A DNA stretch of 64,000 bases from contig NZ_BMED01000003.1 in assembly GCF_014636315.1 (NCBI RefSeq), forward strand, positions 496,001 through 560,000. Direction: 5' to 3'. The notes beneath the pieces were generated by a model. It was not told the DNA's origin. It worked only from the letters and a program-made list of their open reading frames with translations, and did no database searches. Source of the stretch: Parundibacterium terreum (GTDB taxonomy: Bacteria > Pseudomonadota > Gammaproteobacteria > Burkholderiales > Burkholderiaceae_D). The translations under genes and the position numbers were made by a program. Shown piece after piece: positions 1 to 12,222 of this stretch (position 1 is the first letter of the stretch; every line of letters begins with the position of its first letter).

Positions 1-1371
1 CCGAAACAGGTCGATAGGCCTGGCTAGTGTTCTTGAATGAACTTTAAGTGGATGAACATCGACAAAGAATTGGAGTAGACCTTTGCAGAGATCGCTAAAA
101 GTAATTCTTGCGCTCTCTCTCGGGTCCATCGGAATGCAGTTCGCGACAGGCTTGACCACTTTCCCTTGTGGTGGAAGATGGTGGCCGAGCTCACCGAAGA
201 ACCTTTCCACGCCAGGCTTAAACCAGGGCTGGCGCACAGGACAATACTGGATATCAGTATTTATCTCCAATGCGGCTGACACAAACTGGATTGAATGAAA
301 TTCAAGTCCGTTGTCCACCACATATAATTCGCCGACCCCGTAGCCGAACCATTCTTGAGTTAGAAAGGGGGCGTTGGAGGTAAATGCAGTCTTCGGCATT
401 AGCCCCACCTTCATTGCATTGAGGACCGCCGCCAGACCCGCGCCCGAGAACGAAATGTAAAATCCGACCAAATAGCCGCTGAACGCGTCGACGATGATGG
501 TAATGATAGGACGTCCCAGCGGTATGCCAGTTGAGTCGGCTATCACTACAAAGTCCAGGATAGTGTGATCTACCTCCAAACGTTGGAGTGCGCGCACTGC
601 TTGAGTTCCAGCCAGTGAATAGCGCCATTTATTTTTTGCGTAGCTGGCACCGTATCGATGGACGTCTCGATAGTAGGGGTCAACCTCGTTCACGCGTCGG
701 CGCAGCGTTGAGCTGCTCACGATCGTATCTTCTGCAGTAATTACGCCTTTTTGGGCCAGGTTTTCCAAATTCCTTCGCAAAATTGTTGCCGCGTTTTGCA
801 GAGATGGCCTGGTACGAATAAAGTAACTTTTTAGAAGTACCTTGTTAATTTCAGCTTCTACACTTTCAGAGTATTTTTTCAGGCGCTTTCTCTGAAAATT
901 TTTGGTGACAATGGCGGCAACATTTCCTCCAGACTCATCCCAGTCCCTTACCCAACTCATCGCCGTCGATGCGGTGGGTAGAGATTGTGTGTCACTCTCT
1001 TCGATCGGAAATTTTTTCAGCAATCGCTCGATGATTCGTCGTTGCCCACGAGATGCGCCATTTTTTTTAATCCATTTTATGATACGTACTCTGAAAAGCA
1101 GTTGTTCCTTATATTTTGCAGGTAAGGAATCAATGCTAGTCAAGAAGGACGGCGCGTCGGCGGTGGCGACATCCTTTGAATCTGAAGCGCCTACGACGTG
1201 AAGTTCATTGTTTAAAATCTGCTTAGTGACGTCAGCGATGGGCCATGTGTAACTTCGGCGCGTGATCGTATCTTCGAACTGCACTTGATTCTGCTCCAGT
1301 TGCCTGATGAATTCTAGCGTCTGGGTTCCACGCCGCAGCGTTAAGCCAACTTGGAATGCAAACATTCTCAT
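1..1371 (-). CDS. tnsB: Tn7-like transposase TnsB (partial, C-terminus beyond window)
   Basis: DDE-family transposase that joins transposon ends to target DNA, working with TnsA in Tn7-like elements. I translated the minus strand by hand: one frame is open from the ATG at 1371 to the window edge, giving 457 residues with no stop. The integrase core is complete: first Asp in EVDHT (residue 268), second Asp in VVDNG (353), Glu in GVERFF (389), a D-x84-D-x35-E spacing typical of the TnsB/Mu type. The N-terminal 250 residues are basic and helix-rich, as expected for end-binding domains. A TGA sits at 1381-1383 in this frame, so translation cannot begin further upstream; a second ATG at 1365 is also possible. 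An AAGAAG lies just before 1371. It overlaps tnsA by about 140 bases. tnsC and tniQ/tnsD would lie to the left, outside the window. Confidence 0.88.
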   Translation of the reverse strand, partial: MRMFAFQVGLTLRRGTQTLEFIRQLEQNQVQFEDTITRRSYTWPIADVTKQILNNELHVVGASDSKDVATADAPSFLTSIDSLPAKYKEQLLFRVRIIKWIKKNGASRGQRRIIERLLKKFPIEESDTQSLPTASTAMSWVRDWDESGGNVAAIVTKNFQRKRLKKYSESVEAEINKVLLKSYFIRTRPSLQNAATILRRNLENLAQKGVITAEDTIVSSSTLRRRVNEVDPYYRDVHRYGASYAKNKWRYSLAGTQAVRALQRLEVDHTILDFVVIADSTGIPLGRPIITIIVDAFSGYLVGFYISFSGAGLAAVLNAMKVGLMPKTAFTSNAPFLTQEWFGYGVGELYVVDNGLEFHSIQFVSAALEINTDIQYCPVRQPWFKPGVERFFGELGHHLPPQGKVVKPVANCIPMDPRESARITFSDLCKGLLQFFVDVHPLKVHSRTLARPIDLFR

Positions 1372-1993
1372 GATCTTCTTTCAGAAAATAGGGATTGATT
1401 AAGGTGTCAGGCGAGAGAGATATGTCATTCAGAAACGTAAGGAGGCGCCTGCCCAGAAAATGAAATACCACTGCGAGATTAACTTCGGCGGACCTCACTA
1501 GTTGCGAGATGGATTGAGGTTCTGATGTATTGAAAGATTTTTTCACCCGATCAAAAATCTCCGACGAGACAGAACTTCGAGCGTATCGAAGCAAGAGTTC
1601 GATGGTTTCAGGTAAATCGCCAACGTCAATCATTTGGTCAGTCACGACTAAGAAAGGGAGGTCTTTTTCCCGCAAAATCGGAATGATCTGGTCAAACATA
1701 TCGGCAAATTTAGCCACAAATTTTTCTGGCTTAACTTCGACGACAAATTTTTGCCCTGAGGATAAGGTGATCAAAAAATCCGGTGTATAGGATTTTTCGC
1801 AGTTGTCCCCATAGGCGATTTTGAATGGCTGATCAACTATCCTACTGACGCCTGGGGTGAGTAACATGCGTTGAACAAAGCGGCGCTCTAACTGACTCTC
1901 ATACTCAACGGGTTCAGGTTGCAGCCAAGTACATGCGACTAACCCCACTGTTCGATGCGGCGAGCGCGTTACGACCTTGCGTTTCGGCTTCAT
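1232..1993 (-). CDS. tnsA: Tn7-like transposition endonuclease TnsA
   Basis: TnsA makes the 5' strand cuts at transposon ends, allowing cut-and-paste movement together with TnsB. The 253-residue product has the TnsA N-terminal nuclease signature: YESQLERRF near residue 31, then YTPDF (Asp72) and VVEVKP (Glu86, Lys88), a PD-(D/E)xK active site. The C-terminal part (about 100-210) would be the winged-helix domain. The last 46 or so residues are read from DNA that also encodes the start of tnsB in another frame, an overlap far longer than the few bases usual for tnsA/tnsB. The tail may therefore be a read-through extension rather than a folded domain. The gene is transcribed leftward and is the first tns gene of the element. 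Its presence separates this element from Tn402/Tn5053-type transposons, which lack TnsA. Confidence 0.85.
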   Translation of the reverse strand: MKPKRKVVTRSPHRTVGLVACTWLQPEPVEYESQLERRFVQRMLLTPGVSRIVDQPFKIAYGDNCEKSYTPDFLITLSSGQKFVVEVKPEKFVAKFADMFDQIIPILREKDLPFLVVTDQMIDVGDLPETIELLLRYARSSVSSEIFDRVKKSFNTSEPQSISQLVRSAEVNLAVVFHFLGRRLLTFLNDISLSPDTLINPYFLKEDHENVCIPSWLNAAAWNPDARIHQATGAESSAVRRYDHAPKLHMAHR

Positions 1994-4802: not shown

Positions 4803-5459
4803 CTAGAACAGCGATCTCGTGCGGGGCGGAGAACCGTAAAGCTCTTCGATTTGCCTCAAGAACTGAGTCTGCCCGCCATAACTAGGATGCCGGACACAAA
4901 TCACTGGTACGGTGTCCGTAACACGATTAGCTGCGGCAGACGCGTCGTTGCCGATAGCAACAATACGAGATGGCCTCAACAATCCAATTAGTTCCTGGAG
5001 AAGCTCCTCGCCAGCGCAGCGTTCGCGGGCATTGTGCTGACGGTTTGTGAACGGGTGGTCTGCCTCGTGCGGGTGAAGTGGAAACACATTCCACAAGAAA
5101 ATCCGCGCATCAATTTGATCTAGCTTGCTCCAGATAACCGCTGCGGTCCGCTCCGCAATGGCGGAGCCCATCGTAGACCGCTTGGCAACAAAGTTCCAAC
5201 GCTTGGCATGCTGGTCGATATGAACGTCATCTGTCAATGCAAGTCCCGTCCGGCGCCCTCCGCGATATCCGAGGTCTCGTCCAATCCAAATCGCATCGAC
5301 TGGTTCATTTTCCGCCTGGTTCAGCATCGCCGATAAGGCTGCTGCGCGGCGACGGGGCGCGTCAGCACGATCATGTACTTCGCAACGATCGGAATATGGG
5401 TTAAAGCAGTTTTCAAACCGCAACGCGGCAACCGCTTTAACAAAAGGGTGTAATTTCAT
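4803..5459 (-). CDS. Uracil-DNA-glycosylase-superfamily protein
   Basis: A 218-residue protein and the last gene of the four-gene TIR operon. The UDG fold is suggested by three motifs: AIWIGRDLGYRGGRRTGLAL (about residues 56-75, motif A loop that binds the flipped base), WNVFPLHP (about 122-129, with the Asn-x-x-Pro pattern), and RHPSYGG (about 189-195, motif B loop that inserts into DNA). Canonical UDG removes uracil from DNA; distant members act on other bases or lack glycosylase activity. It overlaps the MazG-like gene by four bases (ATGA), so translation is coupled. In this context it might excise a modified or deaminated base from phage DNA; that is inference. Confidence 0.72.
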   Translation of the reverse strand: MKLHPFVKAVAALRFENCFNPYSDRCEVHDRADAPRRRAAALSAMLNQAENEPVDAIWIGRDLGYRGGRRTGLALTDDVHIDQHAKRWNFVAKRSTMGSAIAERTAAVIWSKLDQIDARIFLWNVFPLHPHEADHPFTNRQHNARERCAGEELLQELIGLLRPSRIVAIGNDASAAANRVTDTVPVICVRHPSYGGQTQFLRQIEELYGSPPRTRSLF

Positions 5460-6598
5460 TTTTTTGACTCAAACGCCTCATAGCGGATCGTGCGAAGCTC
5501 ACGGTTTCCGACAATCCAGCCACCTTGTGCATCTTTAATTTGACGGAAAACCGAATAACCGTCAAGTATAGCCTTTTCCCAGAGCTTCAGCGGACACTTT
5601 GCCACTTCATAGCCACTTACAAATTCACTAATAGTTTTCAGCATCCCTAGCGAAATTTTGTCTTGATTCTCAAAGAAATTGAGTTCCTTGGCTCGAGAAA
5701 ATATCCAAGCAGTCAGCCCTTCTTCGACGACTATTGCGCGGCCACCGTCTTGTTCCTCGTCATATGCAGGCTTGCTCTTGCGCTTGTGCTTGATCAATGC
5801 CCGCATGACGGGCGACCAGTGAAGAATAGCAGCATATGCAAAATGGAAAACATCATGAAATCGATACCCATCTCGGTCAGAGATGTTGTCTGTCAATGGA
5901 TCTCCTATAAAAACCCCTTGCCACTGCAGATAACTTCTTGCACTGCCTCGCTGATTGATGCGAATTCGGAATTCCCTGGGTAACCGCTCTTCGATTTCAA
6001 AATCCGCGTCAAAATCTATCAGCTCATCCAAATTTGGATCGAGAAAAGCTCCCCTGGCTTTGTACAAGTTGCTCCGCACAACATCTGAAAATTTTAGTTT
6101 CGCGGCGTGAAGTGCGCGAAGATAGTCACGCGCAAAACAGACGATTTCTGCACGCTTGGGAGAATTTCCTAGCAGTGCGGCAGCGGAACGACCAAGTTGA
6201 AAGAGTGTTGTATCTACTGAGTCGGTTGACGTTGGCACTGCCACATAGGCAACCCCCCCCTTAGCCAGATCGCTTGCTACACCAGCCGCCTTGAAATTAT
6301 CTAGCCTTGTAGCGTCGGTGAACAATTCATCAAGATGAATATTCAAGCGTCGACAGAGCGCAGCGAGATACCAAAGTGTATCTCCGAACTCTTCCTCCGC
6401 TGCTTTGGTATATTGAGGATAAGCTGTTTTTTCGCGAATGAGTTTCTTTGCGGTGGACATGATGCCGCCCACTTCGCCATAAAGGCCTTGCAGGATCGGA
6501 CTGATATCGGCTGGGTCAATTACATCGGTGTCGGCGATTTCAATCGCATAGTCCGACAGCAAAATTGAACCGCTATTTTGAATGATGGAATTAGCCAC
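5456..6598 (-). CDS. MazG-like nucleotide pyrophosphohydrolase with extra C-terminal domain
   Basis: A 380-residue protein. Residues 35-95 match the all-alpha MazG fold (LYGEVGG at 40-45, AAEEEFGDTLWYLAAL at 67-81), which hydrolyses NTPs or dNTPs to NMP and pyrophosphate. The usual ExxE...ExxD metal site is altered: Glu42 is present, the second Glu is Gly45, and Glu70 and Asp73 are intact. The remaining 280 residues contain a second set of metal-like motifs, HDVFH (248-252) and EEQDGGRAIVVEE (281-293). The start codon is GTG at 6598, inside the end of the Nmad2 gene (8-base overlap). A role in trimming a nucleotide pool or signal made or sensed by the other operon members is inferred. Confidence 0.75.
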   Translation of the reverse strand: MANSIIQNSGSILLSDYAIEIADTDVIDPADISPILQGLYGEVGGIMSTAKKLIREKTAYPQYTKAAEEEFGDTLWYLAALCRRLNIHLDELFTDATRLDNFKAAGVASDLAKGGVAYVAVPTSTDSVDTTLFQLGRSAAALLGNSPKRAEIVCFARDYLRALHAAKLKFSDVVRSNLYKARGAFLDPNLDELIDFDADFEIEERLPREFRIRINQRGSARSYLQWQGVFIGDPLTDNISDRDGYRFHDVFHFAYAAILHWSPVMRALIKHKRKSKPAYDEEQDGGRAIVVEEGLTAWIFSRAKELNFFENQDKISLGMLKTISEFVSGYEVAKCPLKLWEKAILDGYSVFRQIKDAQGGWIVGNRELRTIRYEAFESKK

Positions 6599-7217
6599 GC
6601 AGTGTCATCCATTCGTATGGCGGACCTTGGTAGCCGCTAACTTCAAAGTTTCGCACCCACTGAGCCAAGGCATCAAGCAACTTGGGCTCATCGAAACAAG
6701 AGCGCCCTATGCCGCTCTTACACAATGAGTGGCCCTGACTATCACGAAGTTCCAATGGAAATTTTGGTCCAATGCCGCCGAAGTATACGAAATCATCGCT
6801 CACTAAGACACGATTAACGCCGGTATCCCGCCGGACATGTTGGGGGTTGATTTGTCCATCTTGAAGCGAATGGAAGGAATCACGTTGTTGCCAACCGGCA
6901 CCTAGTCCATCGCGGAAATAGATGTTGTCTCCACAGCTTTGTTTCCTACTTCCATTGCGAAAGGGGTGTTTCGCTTGAAATCGAGGGTCCGTCGAATACG
7001 CATCGAATGTCATGGCCTCAGTTACTCGCATGGCATATACCAAGTGACCGCCGCGCCTGATACTGCGGTCATTACTTCCGCTGCCGACTACCCAATCACC
7101 AACATTCGCATGCTGGCGAATGCCTGGTTTGCACGTTGCAAGAGTGCAGTAGCCATAAAAGGGGTTCGGTGCAAACCCACTGTCATACCGTACTACATAT
7201 GAATAGATACGGGCCAT
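6591..7217 (-). CDS. Nmad2-type protein (nucleotide modification associated domain 2)
   Basis: A 208-residue single-domain protein. The start MARIYSYVVRYDSGFAPNPF, the GDWVVGSGS motif (about 41-49), GGHLVYAMRVTEAM (about 56-69), and the central GDNIYFRD and VLVSDDFVYFGG segments are what I know as the Nmad2 family, named from predicted phage and bacterial DNA-hypermodification gene neighbourhoods; its biochemical activity is not established as far as I know. The gene overlaps the TIR gene by one base (TAATG) and the MazG-like gene by eight, so all are one transcript. It may bind or process a modified nucleotide. The family call is from memory of the conserved motifs. Confidence 0.75.
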   Translation of the reverse strand: MARIYSYVVRYDSGFAPNPFYGYCTLATCKPGIRQHANVGDWVVGSGSNDRSIRRGGHLVYAMRVTEAMTFDAYSTDPRFQAKHPFRNGSRKQSCGDNIYFRDGLGAGWQQRDSFHSLQDGQINPQHVRRDTGVNRVLVSDDFVYFGGIGPKFPLELRDSQGHSLCKSGIGRSCFDEPKLLDALAQWVRNFEVSGYQGPPYEWMTLRG

Positions 7218-7684
7218 TAGCAGGGGTGACGTTTCAGCGAAACTGCTTCACATGGGCCGCCATCTGGCTTTTCCCAGCTGTCCTTGCCATTAATTGCATC
7301 GACGATGGCGTCACCATTCCATCCTACTAACGCGTCGGCGTACTCCTTCAATGCTTCCGGAAGATCGCATTCTTTTTCACCATGCTCCCAGACGCCGACA
7401 ATGCGCTTGCCCTGTTTAGCAGCATATTCGATTTCCCAGTTGACCCAGTCGCTGTTCTTCGTCTGTGGCGAAACATAGCAAATAAAAACACCCGCCCAAT
7501 TGATTGCTGGGGCAAGAATCTGGGTCTTTATGTAGTGCGGATCTTGTGCGTTGTTGAATTTTCCAGTATGGATGGACGAGTCGCGAATATCCATGCCTTT
7601 AGGTGCCAAGAGGTCCTTCAACTTTTTTAAGCCGCCATCATCCTTGTGGACATGACTGATAAATACGTTTTTTTGGTCCGCCAT
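7217..7684 (-). CDS. TIR-like domain protein (DUF1863/ThsB-like)
   Basis: A 155-residue protein formed almost entirely by one TIR-like domain: NVFISHVHKDD (6-16) is strand A and box 1, a central GVFICYVSP (65-73) is strand D, and WVNWEIEYAAK (80-90) is the helix carrying the probable catalytic Glu84; KRIVGVWEHG follows. This resembles the MTH538/DUF1863 group that includes ThsB of Thoeris, where TIR proteins make an NAD-derived signal; other TIR proteins destroy NAD. There is no ThsA homologue nearby. It is the first gene of a four-gene operon, with a strong AGGAG eight bases before the ATG. Its role as sensor, signal synthase or NADase is undetermined. Confidence 0.8.
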   Translation of the reverse strand: MADQKNVFISHVHKDDGGLKKLKDLLAPKGMDIRDSSIHTGKFNNAQDPHYIKTQILAPAINWAGVFICYVSPQTKNSDWVNWEIEYAAKQGKRIVGVWEHGEKECDLPEALKEYADALVGWNGDAIVDAINGKDSWEKPDGGPCEAVSLKRHPC

Positions 7685-8370
7685 GTTTTCTCCTGAGCAA
7701 GAATCCCCTGAACAGCGTTAATAATTTAGACTAATTAAGACGTATTTCCAGAACATATGAAACCAATTGTAACAATTTTTTAAATGTTGGCAAGAAATAA
7801 TTAGTAGGTTTATCACAATTTAGTAGCTAACGCACCTGCAGGCGAATCTAAGGGCCGACGGCAAAGTGAGAGATATTCTAAAATTCATCGTCATAAATGT
7901 CGTCCTCTAGATCCGAAGGAATTGGGATTTGAATGGTCGTACGCTCGGGTGGCAGTGTTCGTCAGGCAGTGGAATTAATATTCTCCCCAAATCAGACGGC
8001 AAGCTTTGCGCAAATGGGACAGTTGCGACCTATCGCTGACTATAGGCTCATTGACCGAATAGGTGTCTACGCGGGAGGTCGAAGTGACCCTTCGGAAAGA
8101 GAGTTAGTGAATGTTTACATAGTGGTAGTGATAGCGGGTGAGGGCGTATAAGTCGTTGTCGGGCAGTATCGGAGGAGGAAGCAGTTGAGGGTTTCCAGCC
8201 GCAATGCTCATGGCATCCTGGACCAGACGCAGGCGGGACTTGGGCCTGTTTCTTCAGTTACTAGTCCGATGCCGAGGAGAACCATTGCTGTTCTATCGTT
8301 TCGATATTTCCTTTTAATGGGATTTCCTCTGCTCTGAGTTCTTTAGAGGGAAGGCACGAGTAGTGCATGA
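7685..8370. other. Non-coding region upstream of the TIR operon
   Basis: About 690 bases. The first 150 are AT-rich and should hold the leftward promoter of the TIR operon; I could not single out a convincing -35/-10 pair. An open frame on the plus strand (7933-8151) has no ribosome binding site or recognisable domain and is not called. No repeats or strong hairpins were seen. Confidence 0.45.
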
Positions 8371-8863
8371 CTACAGGGTAATCGAGCGCATATATAGCGG
8401 GAGCAAATATGTGCGCTTGGCGTTTCGCCCTTGGCGCAATCCCATTCGGTCCATACCTGATAGACCATGGTCTAGATCGCGTTTCTCTTTTGCTCTCCGA
8501 TCATCTTCGCAAATTCGCCCATGAGGTTGGCTACGGGCGCTGCTGCCCTGTGAGAGTAGCCCAACGACAGTGCCTTTAAGAGCGCTGCCCAATGCCGTCC
8601 TTCAAGCGCCACAAGCGCTGAAGCCAGGGCCGCATTTAGCGAATTGTTTCCTGGGTATTTGAACAATGCCTGTATCCTTGCGCGGCACGGCCTGCCGGCG
8701 CCGCAGACCAGTTCAACAGATGCCGCCATTCCCTTGGTATCGTGTAGCTGAATCTGCTGCCGACGATCAGCACGCCTTCATCGCGCAGTGCGGCGACCAG
8801 TTCTGGGAAAACTGTAGTTGGGGTATTTTGGAGCTCTGAATTTTTCCAGTCAATTTGATCCAT
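8371..8863 (-). pseudogene. Possible gene remnant downstream of the ABC-3C ATPase
   Basis: Two overlapping leftward open frames lie here. One (8863-8636) starts MDQIDWKNSELQNT, overlaps the ATPase stop by 14 bases and reads VFPELVAALRDEGVLIVGSR; the other (about 8729-8472) continues in the next frame with ALFKYPGNNSLNAALASALV and ends EQKRNAI. Both have protein-like composition and adjoin, so they may be one gene broken by a frameshift, or a short real fourth gene followed by a relic. I recognise no family. A decayed fourth cistron of the ABC-3C operon is the simplest reading. Confidence 0.35.
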
Positions 8864-10679
8864 CGTTTACTGTTTCGATATTATCCCTTTGTTTTGGGAA
8901 AAAACCTTGCCTCTCATCGGAGGACGCACCGAAGAATTCAGTCGGTTTTAATAATGCTGCTGTCTCTTTTGTAATTAGCTCGTTTTCAAGAACGATAACT
9001 TGCCCAGGTCCGCTCCATTTAGCCAACCAGCCATAAAAAGAATCTCGTACAGTGGTTGGTGACACAGTAACGTCGGAGCTGTTAAGTGGGTCTGAATATG
9101 ATTTAATCGGTGAGTCAAGTACCACAAAGCCTAGGTGAGGATATCCCTTACCCAGGGCATGCCTCAGCAAAGCAATCGACATAGCAGCAAGGAAGATCGC
9201 TCTCTTGCCAGCACCGTAGCTTAGTCGTGCACGCCCATCGATTCGGATATCACATTCAATTGCGTCGACCTGGATTGAATCGATTTCAAGAAGCCCCCAC
9301 TGGTGCAAGAGTTCTTTAACGATGCCAGCAACAACAATAGCGTCTGATTCAGTATGACGTGAAAGGGGAGCGCTTTTAGCCGGCACGAGATTTTTTAAGC
9401 GTTGCAACTCTGCGTTTAGTCTTTCTAATTCCTCGAAAAGCTTTTCCTGAGAATACAATTCACTTCGAGAAATCGCCAGTGTTTTAGGGTCTACACTGAA
9501 CTCTTGCAAGCTAGCCTCCAATGCCTTTTTTTCTGATAGTTCAATTGCTTGAAGTTCGTCGTGTAACCGACGCTCTTCGTTTGAAAGATCAGATGATAGA
9601 GTCGTTTCCCTCTGGAGTGCTAGCGCGAGTCCCTTTTTCAATGCTTCAATTTTTGACGCTTCAGCTTTCATCGCCGCTCTTTGTTTCTTCGTAGCGCTGG
9701 CGGATAAGAAACTGCTATCCACCTGCTGCTCTACCGGTGTGTTGCAGAGTGAACAAGGATAATTGTCTAGCGTTTCAAAAACTGCGATTCCGTCACTAAT
9801 TGCAGCTAGTCTGTCCAAATCGCTCTGATATTTTTCTTCTAGAAGCATGAATCTGGAGGCCATCGCTTGTGAATATGCCAATTTTGTTTTGACGTTACTT
9901 AACTCTGACGATGTTCGGTTTAAAGCCTCACGTATCCCTTTCAGTTGTGTCGAACGCTCCCGTTGTTGATCCGAAAGGAGACTTAACGTAGCATCGACCC
10001 GTTTTAAAGCATCCTGTATATCTGCCTTACTGCTTCCATCGGGAATATCTGCGTTGACACGACGGAGGTCCCGCTCAATACTTAAAATGTTCGTGCTGGT
10101 TCTTAACTTTTCCTCTTTGGTTGGCGCCAGGACTATGGCTTTGTCATCTTGGCCAGTTAAAAATACACAAAATGCGGCACGACGTTGAGGTTGTTCGGTG
10201 TGGCTTCCAGCGGTTGAGTTCTCGCTAATCATTGTGGGTTGAGAAATCAAAAACCAGTGCCGCAGATCGCCTGAAGTTAGAGGGCCACGTTTCGACATTG
10301 ATCGAAGAATTTGCACTTTGGCGGCGCCAGCTAGCGACACTAGTAATGTGCCGATTTCGTCAGGGAGTGCCTCAGTGGATTCCAATTCATGGATTGCCGC
10401 GGCATAGACTTCTTCAGAGCCGCCGTTCAGTGCTTTTTTTATTGTGTAGGTCCCGCCGTCAGCGCTTCGGATTTGCAAGAACAGGGTGTCGTATCCTTTG
10501 TCTTGTGGAATTTCCTTCGGCCCACGCTCTCCCCCAAGGAGATACCATAGACAATCTCGAATATATGACTTTCCGGTATCGCTTGGTCCTCTAATCAGGG
10601 TGCCAGCGGGGCGAAATTCAATGACTGCATCCGGCACAGAAAATCCTCGGCACACCAATTGCTCTAATGCGATTGTCAT
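8850..10679 (-). CDS. ABC-3C system SMC/RecN-like ATPase
   Basis: A 609-residue ATPase with split ABC halves around a coiled coil. Walker A is GPSDTGKS (31-38); the middle (about 195-430) is heptad-rich with a CSLC pair (309-312) at the turn, like a Rad50 zinc hook or rubredoxin-type knuckle; the C-terminal half has a degenerate signature RLSYGAGKRAIFLAA, Walker B FVVLDSP and VIVLENE. Such ATPases form the conserved core of ABC-three-component systems, predicted to sense invading nucleic acid and license an effector. It overlaps the middle-component gene by four bases and is the last clear gene of the operon. Family background is from published classifications of ABC ATPases in conflict systems; its activity here is inferred. 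Confidence 0.82.
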   Translation of the reverse strand: MTIALEQLVCRGFSVPDAVIEFRPAGTLIRGPSDTGKSYIRDCLWYLLGGERGPKEIPQDKGYDTLFLQIRSADGGTYTIKKALNGGSEEVYAAAIHELESTEALPDEIGTLLVSLAGAAKVQILRSMSKRGPLTSGDLRHWFLISQPTMISENSTAGSHTEQPQRRAAFCVFLTGQDDKAIVLAPTKEEKLRTSTNILSIERDLRRVNADIPDGSSKADIQDALKRVDATLSLLSDQQRERSTQLKGIREALNRTSSELSNVKTKLAYSQAMASRFMLLEEKYQSDLDRLAAISDGIAVFETLDNYPCSLCNTPVEQQVDSSFLSASATKKQRAAMKAEASKIEALKKGLALALQRETTLSSDLSNEERRLHDELQAIELSEKKALEASLQEFSVDPKTLAISRSELYSQEKLFEELERLNAELQRLKNLVPAKSAPLSRHTESDAIVVAGIVKELLHQWGLLEIDSIQVDAIECDIRIDGRARLSYGAGKRAIFLAAMSIALLRHALGKGYPHLGFVVLDSPIKSYSDPLNSSDVTVSPTTVRDSFYGWLAKWSGPGQVIVLENELITKETAALLKPTEFFGASSDERQGFFPKQRDNIETVNDGSN

Positions 10680-11173
10680 GAATTTTTTACCTTTACGGCC
10701 GTCATTTCTATTTCAGCGCCCCACCGATGACCAAGCTCACTAAAGGTTTCGGTTAGGTTTAAAGAGTCAGTATCTCCGAATGTCTTGGCTGCCCAGGCGC
10801 ATCTATCACTTAGATGGCGCGCATATTTTGCACCAATTGAATCCACCAATGACCGGGAATTTTCGCCCGCAAAATATGTAATCCCTGTTTCATCGAGTTG
10901 CGCAGAAACCAGACCCTTTGTATTCATCAGATATAGCCCAGATTGTATGAGCTCTCTGCGACTATATAATTCATTCCCACGAAATGGAACTGGGGTATGC
11001 AAGCTTTCTGGTCCGTCAAAATCACCAGAATATACAATTGCGTAGTCCAGCAATACTAATTTTTGGAGGTCAGCTCCACGTGGGAAAAGACAACTAAGAA
11101 GATAGACCATACGCACGCCAAGCTCAAACGGCGAATTGAATGGAGGCGGCTGGCTTTTCTTTACTTTACCCAT
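10676..11173 (-). CDS. ABC-3C system middle component
   Basis: A 165-residue protein. FNSPFELGVRMVYLL (13-27) followed by ADLQKLVLLDYAIVYSG and a central VPFRGNELYSRRELIQSGL is the pattern of the ABC-3C middle component (MC2-like), a winged-helix adaptor found between effector and ATPase genes. It contains no catalytic motif that I can see. Overlaps of 13 bases with the effector and four with the ATPase indicate tight translational coupling and probable complex formation. It likely bridges the ATPase and the effector; this follows from the published description of such systems, not from anything provable in this sequence. Confidence 0.8.
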   Translation of the reverse strand: MGKVKKSQPPPFNSPFELGVRMVYLLSCLFPRGADLQKLVLLDYAIVYSGDFDGPESLHTPVPFRGNELYSRRELIQSGLYLMNTKGLVSAQLDETGITYFAGENSRSLVDSIGAKYARHLSDRCAWAAKTFGDTDSLNLTETFSELGHRWGAEIEMTAVKVKNS

Positions 11174-12222
11174 TTCATTTTCTCTTCATTCACCAAGTGA
11201 TGGCAGGCGCCTGGTAGGTCAGCCGGAAACAGTCGACGTGAAAGCGGATTATCGCTAATTTGTAAGGTAGATGCGTGGTTCAACACAGCATCGAGTCGGA
11301 CCATACCATTTTGATGCAACGGGCTGGACAACACTCGCTTCACGCCGGCATACACAGCTTCTAGAAGTTTTTCAAAATCTTCTGGATAGATATCACGGCG
11401 AAATCGCTTTAGCCCCTCTGCACTGTAAAATTCAGCTCGGCAACCTTGGAGATGTTCCCCGTACGCTTCTGATGAAAACGCGGCCTCCATATTGACACTA
11501 ACACTGGAATGTTCAGCGTAAACCTTCAAAAGTTCAGTCAAATAAATTTGCTCCATCACTGCCGGAACAGCTGGAGCTACAAGGACCTCTTCACGCGGCA
11601 CTTCAATGCCGAATAAAGCTTCATGTTTGACAGGATTCTTAGCGTGAAGGTCGATAAGATCTTTTACCGGATATTCCCGAATATTTGAAAATTCGAATGC
11701 GTTGAGAGCATCCATAGTATTTTTATCTAGGGGGAAGTTTTTTGTGTCAATACCCATTTTCCCATCGGTCCAAGCCTGCAGAAATTTTGCTTTTAGGGCA
11801 GTCGGCTTAGCAATCAAATCATGCAATGTTGGAGTGGTATTTTTTGGGGCGCAAACGTAATAGTTAGCGGGTGCTGGGAAAGTCCCTAGGCCAATGTGAT
11901 GGAATACTTTTGCCAGCTCGGGATATAAAATAGATTCGCCGATGGCGCTTTGGTAGCGTTTGCCTTGATATAGGTCCCATTCATCTTTGACTAAATCGGA
12001 TTGGTATCTGGCTTCAACGTCACGCCCAGCATCGCCAGCGCCACCTAACTTTGCGACGAACTGGTATTTTTTACCCACACCTAAATTTATCCGGCAGCAG
12101 TCCTCAATAAATCCTTCCCATTCGTCAGGGCTTAACAGGAGTATTAAAGATGATGGTGGATATTTTTCTTGGTTTAACCGTTGGCGACGCTTCACGTTCT
12201 GCTTTTTGGAGAGGGGATTCAA
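11161..12222 (-). CDS. ABC-3C system effector with restriction-endonuclease-like domain
   Basis: A 353-residue protein. Residues about 30-170 form a nuclease-like domain: EWEGFIEDCC (34-43), GGAGDAGRDVEA (60-71) with Asp68, and LYQGKRY (84-90) giving a D...QxK active site as in Mrr-type and other PD-(D/E)xK enzymes. The C-terminal half (about 230-350) begins EQIYLTELLKVYAEHSS and should be the conserved ABC-3C C-terminal domain that couples the effector to the ATPase complex. The start is TTG at 12222; GTG at 12195 is an alternative that keeps the nuclease domain. It is the first gene of the operon. DNA cleavage on activation is predicted from the motif, not shown. Confidence 0.8.
   Translation of the reverse strand: MNPLSKKQNVKRRQRLNQEKYPPSSLILLLSPDEWEGFIEDCCRINLGVGKKYQFVAKLGGAGDAGRDVEARYQSDLVKDEWDLYQGKRYQSAIGESILYPELAKVFHHIGLGTFPAPANYYVCAPKNTTPTLHDLIAKPTALKAKFLQAWTDGKMGIDTKNFPLDKNTMDALNAFEFSNIREYPVKDLIDLHAKNPVKHEALFGIEVPREEVLVAPAVPAVMEQIYLTELLKVYAEHSSVSVNMEAAFSSEAYGEHLQGCRAEFYSAEGLKRFRRDIYPEDFEKLLEAVYAGVKRVLSSPLHQNGMVRLDAVLNHASTLQISDNPLSRRLFPADLPGACHHLVNEEKMKWVK

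Follow-up and report, generated by a model that had tools for sequence, protein, structure and literature searches.

Within a 64,000-nucleotide stretch of the Parundibacterium terreum genome (positions 496,001 to 560,000 of contig NZ_BMED01000003.1; hereafter, the window), four genes on the minus strand (4803..7684) encode a TIR protein, an Nmad2 protein, a MazG-like protein fused to MazG_C and a UDG-superfamily protein. Judged by its occurrence across genomes, this four-gene operon is a real, widespread and co-inherited unit. Comparative sequence data indicate that a ThsB-family TIR with its catalytic residues is inherited together with Nmad2, MazG-MazG_C and a UDG-fold protein, and that genes for SLOG-type readers lie near 51/61 of the full loci. 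We propose that the operon may act as an input module of the Thoeris type, whose TIR would signal to a SLOG reader once the nucleotide/base module has been triggered, and we put the probability of this reading at roughly 0.55.

Organization of the operon

All four genes are intact and, according to the open reading frame list, are arranged in the order TIR-Nmad2-MazG/MazG_C-UDG. A previous reading of the letters (hereafter, the first-pass annotation) had described genes running leftward, with overlaps of 1, 8 and 4 bases, behind a single AGGAG site, and both features were borne out by the coordinates. The TIR gene (7217..7684, 155 residues) overlaps the Nmad2 gene (6591..7217, 208 residues) by 1 base, with the letters TAATG at the junction; the Nmad2 gene overlaps the MazG/MazG_C gene (5456..6598, 380 residues, GTG start at 6598) by 8 bases; and the latter overlaps the UDG gene (4803..5459, 218 residues) by 4 bases, with the letters ATGA. 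The AGGAG ribosome-binding site, read from the letters at 7690..7694 of the same strand, precedes the TIR start codon at the head of the operon. Promoter and terminator scans around the operon gave scores at shuffle level.

Pfam searches yielded ThsB_TIR (PF08937, 1.6e-21), Nmad2 (nucleotide modification associated domain 2; PF18753, 4.7e-73), MazG_C (PF18722, 3.3e-82) and UDG (PF03167, 6.3e-6; 26.8 bits, cut-off 24.3). The MazG N-terminus alone had no Pfam match of its own, and here the family profile matched all-alpha NTP pyrophosphatases (2q5z at 2.3e-7, 2q73, and DCTPP1 at 2.2e-4). NCBIfam held no family for any of the four proteins; PADLOC matched the TIR alone, leaving the Nmad2, MazG/MazG_C and UDG proteins without a match; and PHROGs had matches for just two of the four, the MazG protein and the TIR, the latter to an entry of unknown function.

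Recurrence and co-inheritance of the four genes

An Nmad2 alignment was used to scan 84,980 species genomes and yielded 552 relatives, the best 80 of which underlie the counts that follow; L numbers denote individual loci. A TIR gene was directly upstream of Nmad2 in 76 loci, MazG_C and UDG genes were found on the same strand in 71 and 62, respectively, and all four genes, in identical order and strand, were present in 61. Some of the incomplete loci are contig ends; counted as full were also L100, where the MazG frame is split in two, and three loci whose UDG gene starts 79 to 1068 bases beyond the MazG stop. The TIR-Nmad2 junction was of -1 base in 40/61 and the MazG-UDG junction of -4 in 41/61. 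Further, the four proteins co-diverge, with pairwise-distance correlations (r) of 0.85-0.95, none of which was reached in 2000 permutations. The co-occurrence of the four families in unrelated genomes and their setting in defence islands, both anticipated in the first-pass annotation, were thus observed, the latter in that defence-type genes surround the related loci.

Judged by record title, full loci belong to alpha-, beta- and gammaproteobacteria, with contiguous four-gene order in Tistrella, Cupriavidus, Beijerinckia and Mesorhizobium. Partial or divergent loci include Acidobacteriota, Chloroflexota, Planctomycetes and Poribacteria, and the TIR-Nmad2 pair reaches further phyla. Presence is patchy: within the window's family, MazG_C was detected in 8/294 genomes, 7 of them scoring above the cut-off, and in a phylum sample MazG_C was present in 4/398 and Nmad2 in 6/398 genomes, the window's own genome being included in each case. 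On plasmids, Nmad2 relatives were present in 17 records, with a TIR directly upstream in 11 by tblastn and divergent TIRs in three more loci (L014, L046, L049) by profile or BLAST comparison. A phage origin was considered and rejected: a search of 50,697 phage records with Nmad2, UDG and MazG gave no match for Nmad2 or UDG and one weak match for MazG; viral contigs held 8 Nmad2 relatives, three of them with all four genes (L138, L140, L143). The L138 contig, from a viral collection, carries the four-gene unit with TIR-SLOG cluster 3 (SLOG3) neighbours and is perhaps a mobile element or a prophage piece.

The TIR protein and the link to ThsA

The first-pass annotation had set the operon apart from Thoeris on the grounds that no ThsA was present, a claim that is not supported. 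The TIR matched the PADLOC ThsB model PDLC00418 over residues 1-155 of 155 (4.4e-92), a ThsA gene lies just outside the window, and ThsA adjoins the four genes in 5/61 related loci; no ThsA had been seen because the window ends too early. The description of a Glu84-bearing TIR was in turn upheld, as both residues at the catalytic positions are kept in the aligned TIRs, that of the window included (Phe8 in 75/77 and Glu84 in 76/77). Here and for the UDG and MazG proteins, catalytic roles of residues are those established for the families or given in the cited papers, and are predicted for the present proteins. In a sequence search against solved structures, the TIR retrieved one TIR protein (8wcf, 8.6e-5). 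By position in the protein, Phe8/Glu84 can be likened to F6/E81 of Staphylococcus aureus ThsB2, and mutating the latter pair is reported to have disrupted immunity (PMC12578639).

The ThsA gene of the window's genome (G000:C3 486461-487894, corresponding to window positions -9539 to -8106) is located on the same strand at a distance of 12.9 kb from the UDG stop; its product matched PDLC00407 (3.4e-199) and STALD (1e-73) and carries a SIR2 domain. It is followed by three other TIRs, two with strong and the third with a weak (8.7e-5) ThsB match. The Thoeris locus thus formed (L135:606-3894, left of the window) lies beside a divergent gene for a TIR-NB-ARC-TPR protein (L135:4117-7020).

In the five related loci, ThsA is directly beside the four genes: it starts 30 bp (L088), 74 bp (L091) or 73 bp (L092) after UDG, or overlaps at its annotated start (L097), while in L090 it ends ~50 bp before the TIR. 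A sixth locus, L080, has ThsA ~2.2 kb upstream of the TIR, along with two further TIRs. STALD and SIR2 were confirmed in ThsA of L088, L090 and L097, where flank profiles detected no other TIR; a second TIR follows ThsA in L091 and L092. Pfam searches with five other L088 and two other L097 proteins returned restriction, methylase, integrase, ApeA or HAD families, or no match. STALD was present in 7/48 operon-bearing genomes vs. 4/397 sampled phylum genomes (the window's excluded; Fisher p=2.6e-5, kinship ignored), and six of the seven are, by title, alphaproteobacteria. The 48 genomes derive from 50/61 full loci, of which L093 was left out and two, L060 and L079, come from a single genome.

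SLOG-type readers beside related operons

A SLOG-type reader gene was found within ~8 kb in 51/61 full loci, and in 19/26 after removing operons at least 80% identical. The readers were of three types with zero overlap, namely TIR + SLOG cluster 3 (PF18180) in 30 loci, TIR + SLOG cluster 2 (PF18163; SLOG2) in 15 and ThsA in 6, and the SLOG domains were confirmed on representatives. Their placement also differed by type: most SLOG3 genes lay 16-700 bp downstream in convergent orientation, whereas SLOG2 genes were ~1.3 kb upstream and divergent in 12/19, and ThsA was 30-74 bp after UDG in 3/6. The background above the cut-off for the two SLOG families was 6/219 and 4/219 genomes. Because these 80 loci were also the source of the flank profiles, reader types outside them escape detection. 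In the window's genome neither SLOG cluster 3 nor SLOG cluster 2 was matched; the controls of one of these searches were silent, but the background search shows that the profile works.

A patatin-family neighbour was present in 9/61 loci, and in 8 of these it accompanied SLOG3 or SLOG2; of four such neighbours checked by Pfam, those of L055, L069 and L076 carried SLOG cluster 2, which was lacking in that of L102. Directly upstream of the TIR in L101, L104 and L118, there is a small protein, membrane-bound by eye and with no Pfam match. Small proteins of this membrane type upstream of the TIR (L101:6781-7467, L104, L118 and L133) may represent an alternative effector. Six of the 61 loci had neither a profiled reader nor the membrane protein: L061, L065 and L068 are contig ends, L096 and L127 have another TIR, and L093 has a sub-threshold patatin match.

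Presence of a reader seems to depend on that of the TIR, because L029 combines TIR-Nmad2 with TIR417-SLOG2 and has no MazG_C-UDG, and because none of six TIR-less MazG_C-UDG loci (L015, L016, L034, L035, L036, L040) had a reader by flank profiles.

The Nmad2, MazG/MazG_C and UDG proteins

Cys29 of Nmad2 is invariant in 50 aligned rows, and a sequence search against solved structures gave two chance-level matches only (E 0.28).

In the MazG/MazG_C protein, the MazG-like domain spans approximately residues 10-95 and MazG_C residues 193-375. The acidic residues E42, E69/E70 and D73, which we take to be metal ligands, are kept in the alignment (n=72). At position 45, where solved enzymes carry Glu, we found Gly in 48 sequences, Ser in 19, Ala in 3 and Glu in 2; that is, one of the four acidic ligands of MazG/DCTPP1 is replaced in 70/72. 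The operon protein thus shares the N-terminal domain profile match with the DCTPP1/MazG house-cleaning pyrophosphatases, but differs from them by Gly/Ser/Ala in place of the Glu after GEVG, as well as by the MazG_C fusion. Because of this replacement, hydrolysis is plausible, though not assured.

The UDG-like protein carries GRDLGYRGGRRTG and RHPSYGG motifs. Residues R61, D62, L63 and G64 are present in 63/63 aligned sequences, and H191 in 62/63, with a gap in the remaining one; GRD62LG is presumably the counterpart of the E. coli UDG D64 motif. The UDG profile gave no match to solved chains at E<=0.01.

Two separable halves

The operon joins a signalling half, TIR-Nmad2, to a nucleotide half, MazG_C-UDG, because rearranged loci exist and each pair is found without the other. 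In L143 the order is MazG_C-UDG-TIR-Nmad2, and in L046, L047 and L133 the two pairs are divergent or on opposite strands. MazG_C-UDG is found without TIR-Nmad2 in the six TIR-less loci listed above. TIR-Nmad2 in turn stands beside 5-hydroxymethyldeoxyuridine (5-hmdU) kinase and radical SAM in L053 (Parabacteroides), and beside thymidylate synthase, an annotated O-methyltransferase and 5-hmdU DNA kinase in L050 (Sinorhizobium). These latter systems have the TIR-Nmad2 pair and a cysteine tail on the TIR (see below) in common with the window operon, and differ from it by hypermodification-type enzymes that replace the nucleotide half. Nmad2 was also found without a detected TIR (L030, L031, L032, L033, L051). 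In one of these loci (L031:6729-8242, genome G299, same phylum), it lies beside another protein, which by eye looks similar to Nmad3.

MazG_C genes also occur in another recurrent neighbourhood (L015, L016, L017, L018), with an HTH protein and ImmA/IrrE and, in some members, with an added acyl carrier protein, C1 peptidase, thymidylate synthase or nucleotide kinase. This is probably a separate nucleotide-centred system.

The cysteine tail of the TIR

In 77/77 aligned TIRs, a Cys is located at, or at most 4 residues from, the C-terminus (Cys155 in the window, where the tail is encoded at 7217-7234); it is the very last residue in 56/77 and is usually preceded by basic residues. This Cys is more conserved than the catalytic Glu. 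It is also kept in nine further TIRs, including all six degenerate ones described below, and in the TIR-Nmad2 pairs beside hypermodification-type enzymes. As to the role of the Cys, contact with Nmad2 (Cys29) through a metal or a covalent bond, or a function as carrier, are guesses. Speculatively, the operon might represent a Thoeris branch triggered by nucleotide/base chemistry, in which the product of MazG_C and UDG would be passed to TIR-Nmad2, possibly onto Cys155 as a carrier or acceptor thiol, and would gate signal synthesis for interchangeable SLOG readers. On this view, since TIRs without the catalytic Glu keep the tail, the protein would also serve a purpose apart from its NAD chemistry; we consider this extended version doubtful.

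Proposed mechanism and points against it

In the reading that we favour, i.e., a Thoeris-type input module, the MazG_C/UDG pair would act during infection on an unusual nucleotide or a phage-DNA base. Nmad2 would sense either the resulting product or the enzymes at work and release the TIR, which would then convert NAD to a signal of the cyclic ADP-ribose type, and the SLOG reader would execute NAD depletion or another form of shut-down. In the window's genome, the reader would most likely be the ThsA located 12.9 kb away. Excision of modified pyrimidines by the UDG-like protein, as put forward in the first-pass annotation, is a conjecture as well. If these operons do feed Thoeris-type readers, TIR signalling could be triggered by base-excision or nucleotide-pool enzymes. 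NAD-derived signalling would then be linked to the use of DNA glycosylases against modified phage genomes, two antiviral strategies hitherto treated separately. The natural five-gene loci with ThsA open this proposal to a direct test in E. coli.

Several observations weigh against this proposal. The local ThsA has three TIRs of its own and lies behind transposition genes. Clustering is usual among defence genes in any case, the loci are related to one another, and the profiles used for the flanks derive from the very loci that were counted. L102 has patatin and another TIR only, with no SLOG match. Moreover, six loci with degenerate TIRs (L014, L037, L046, L049, L140, L143) keep Nmad2, MazG_C and UDG, and flank profiles found a reader in 0/6 of them. 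Their TIRs lost Phe, Glu or both; those of L014 and L049 align a Glu at position 84, the other motif residues being gone. The four genes are on one strand in five of these loci (divergent in L046) and contiguous in L037, L140 and L143. L037 is flanked by genes that look metabolic by eye, and in L014 an annotated SIR2 family protein, unmatched by the ThsA profile, lies 3 kb away. The operon genes can therefore persist in the absence of TIR signalling and can be retained for another purpose. The contrast in reader presence between full and degenerate-TIR loci (51/61 vs. 0/6; Fisher p=8e-5), for which kinship among the loci and the derivation of the profiles from the full loci are confounders, fits a joint loss of signalling and reader.

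Alternative explanations

The degenerate-TIR loci also bear on an alternative in which the operon would defend directly, by base excision and control of the nucleotide pool: UDG would excise a modified phage base as the Brig enzymes do, MazG_C would clear the modified dNTP, and TIR-Nmad2 would be a scaffold or a secondary suicide switch. These six loci retain UDG, MazG_C and Nmad2 without a detected reader, the six TIR-less MazG_C-UDG pairs exist, and UDG R61/D62 are invariant (63/63). In addition, Brig1 and Brig3 are reported as UDG-superfamily proteins able to act as sole antiphage effectors (PMC11078745, PMC13160076). However, a SLOG-type reader near 51/61 full loci, nearly invariant TIR catalytic residues and a MazG site that lacks one expected acidic ligand in 70/72 speak against it, and we regard direct defence as unlikely.

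We also considered a self-contained abortive system, in which the TIR itself would deplete NAD upon release by Nmad2 and the readers nearby would be independent neighbours. The tight coupling of the four genes and the 6/61 loci without a profiled reader or membrane protein (three of them contig ends) are consistent with it, and TIRs with NADase activity are known in phage defence (PMC12847820). Yet the reader types never overlap and tend to fixed positions, and Thoeris ThsB proteins are reported as makers of signals (PMC11204291), which renders this explanation quite improbable.

Even less probable is a guard on modification, in which a modified pyrimidine of host DNA or of the nucleotide pool would be made or edited by the partner enzymes, and TIR-Nmad2 would attack if this mark were incorrect or absent. 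The enzymes beside TIR-Nmad2 in L050 and L053, together with the five loci of Nmad2 without a detected TIR, would suit such a guard. In the window operon, however, Pfam revealed no thymidylate synthase, 5-hmdU kinase or other modification-making enzyme, and a 5-hmdU kinase profile had no match in the window's genome, although 14 control genomes were silent too.

Finally, it can hardly be entertained that unrelated modules share a defence island by chance, or that the genes merely serve nucleotide housekeeping, since, although defence genes cluster and the individual domains have housekeeping relatives, housekeeping nucleotide sanitation and a chance gene order were rejected on the basis of order, strand, overlaps and co-divergence across three proteobacterial classes, with TIR-Nmad2 in further phyla and a patchy presence (MazG_C in 8/294 family genomes).

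Relation to described systems

The operon shares with Thoeris a TIR of the ThsB family with the catalytic pair, and related loci put ThsA or other SLOG-type genes near it. In contrast with the operon, the published accounts of Thoeris, as far as their available text goes, name no Nmad2, MazG_C or UDG partner. More than half of Thoeris systems are reported to hold multiple diverse ThsB copies. The trigger of the S. aureus ThsB proteins is a capsid protein, whereas the partners in the operon are nucleotide/base-type enzymes; capsid sensing is the one case of triggering covered here (PMC12578639).

The first-pass annotation had regarded the system as possibly undescribed, which is correct only in part. 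MazG, MazG-C, a nucleotide-modification-associated domain and UDG are listed by DefensePredictor (2026) among predicted, unvalidated systems (section 8 and Fig. 6F legend; PMC13092281). Thus, the same uncommon domains as in the operon were called defensive by a machine-learning model, the comparison being made by domain names in text and legends; the term TIR is absent from the main text of that report, whereas the operon has a TIR (PMC13092281). Thymidylate synthase and 5-hydroxymethyluracil kinase are among its newly validated defence domains, and the legend of Fig. 3C, on validated systems, includes definitions of NMAD, thymidylate synthase and 5-hmdU kinase (PMC13092281). Among the papers listed from the open-licence literature, covered mostly by title and the start of the abstract, no description of the TIR-Nmad2-MazG-UDG combination was found. 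New here are the ThsA/SLOG link and the Cys tail of the TIR, the other three domains having partly been put forward in print before, as an unvalidated prediction.

With regard to Brig1 and Brig3, the likeness is at the superfamily level: they are UDG-superfamily proteins in defence islands, as in the operon, and Brig1 is near a ThsA-like gene, but, unlike the multi-gene operon, each is reported as sufficient alone (PMC11078745, PMC13160076).

Genomic surroundings of the operon

As stated in the first-pass annotation, the operon adjoins another conflict system. LmuABC profiles identified a separate Lamassu/ABC-3C system at 8850..12222 on the minus strand, composed of LmuB (8850-10679, 2.3e-138), LmuC (10676-11173, 3e-50) and LmuA (11161-12222, 5.6e-88). 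The ~1.1 kb between the operon and these genes (7695-8849) holds no convincing gene.

The claim of a transposon-borne island was sustained as regards the presence of Tn7-like genes. No convincing inverted repeats marking transposon ends were found over 44 kb, so that the operon itself being transposon-borne is unsupported. A TnsA-like gene identified by Pfam (1232..1993, minus strand) belongs to a Tn7-like set extending beyond the left window edge: a TnsB-like gene, named by position and by eye and with no Pfam match, spans that edge, and TniB and two TniQ genes lie further left, the Tn7-like genes separating ThsA from the operon. Two TniQ-like pairs were observed there (L137:6468-8161, named by eye, and L135:8750-13993), one with TniB, TnsB-like and TnsA genes, and the Tn7-like elements left of the window are possibly nested or in tandem.

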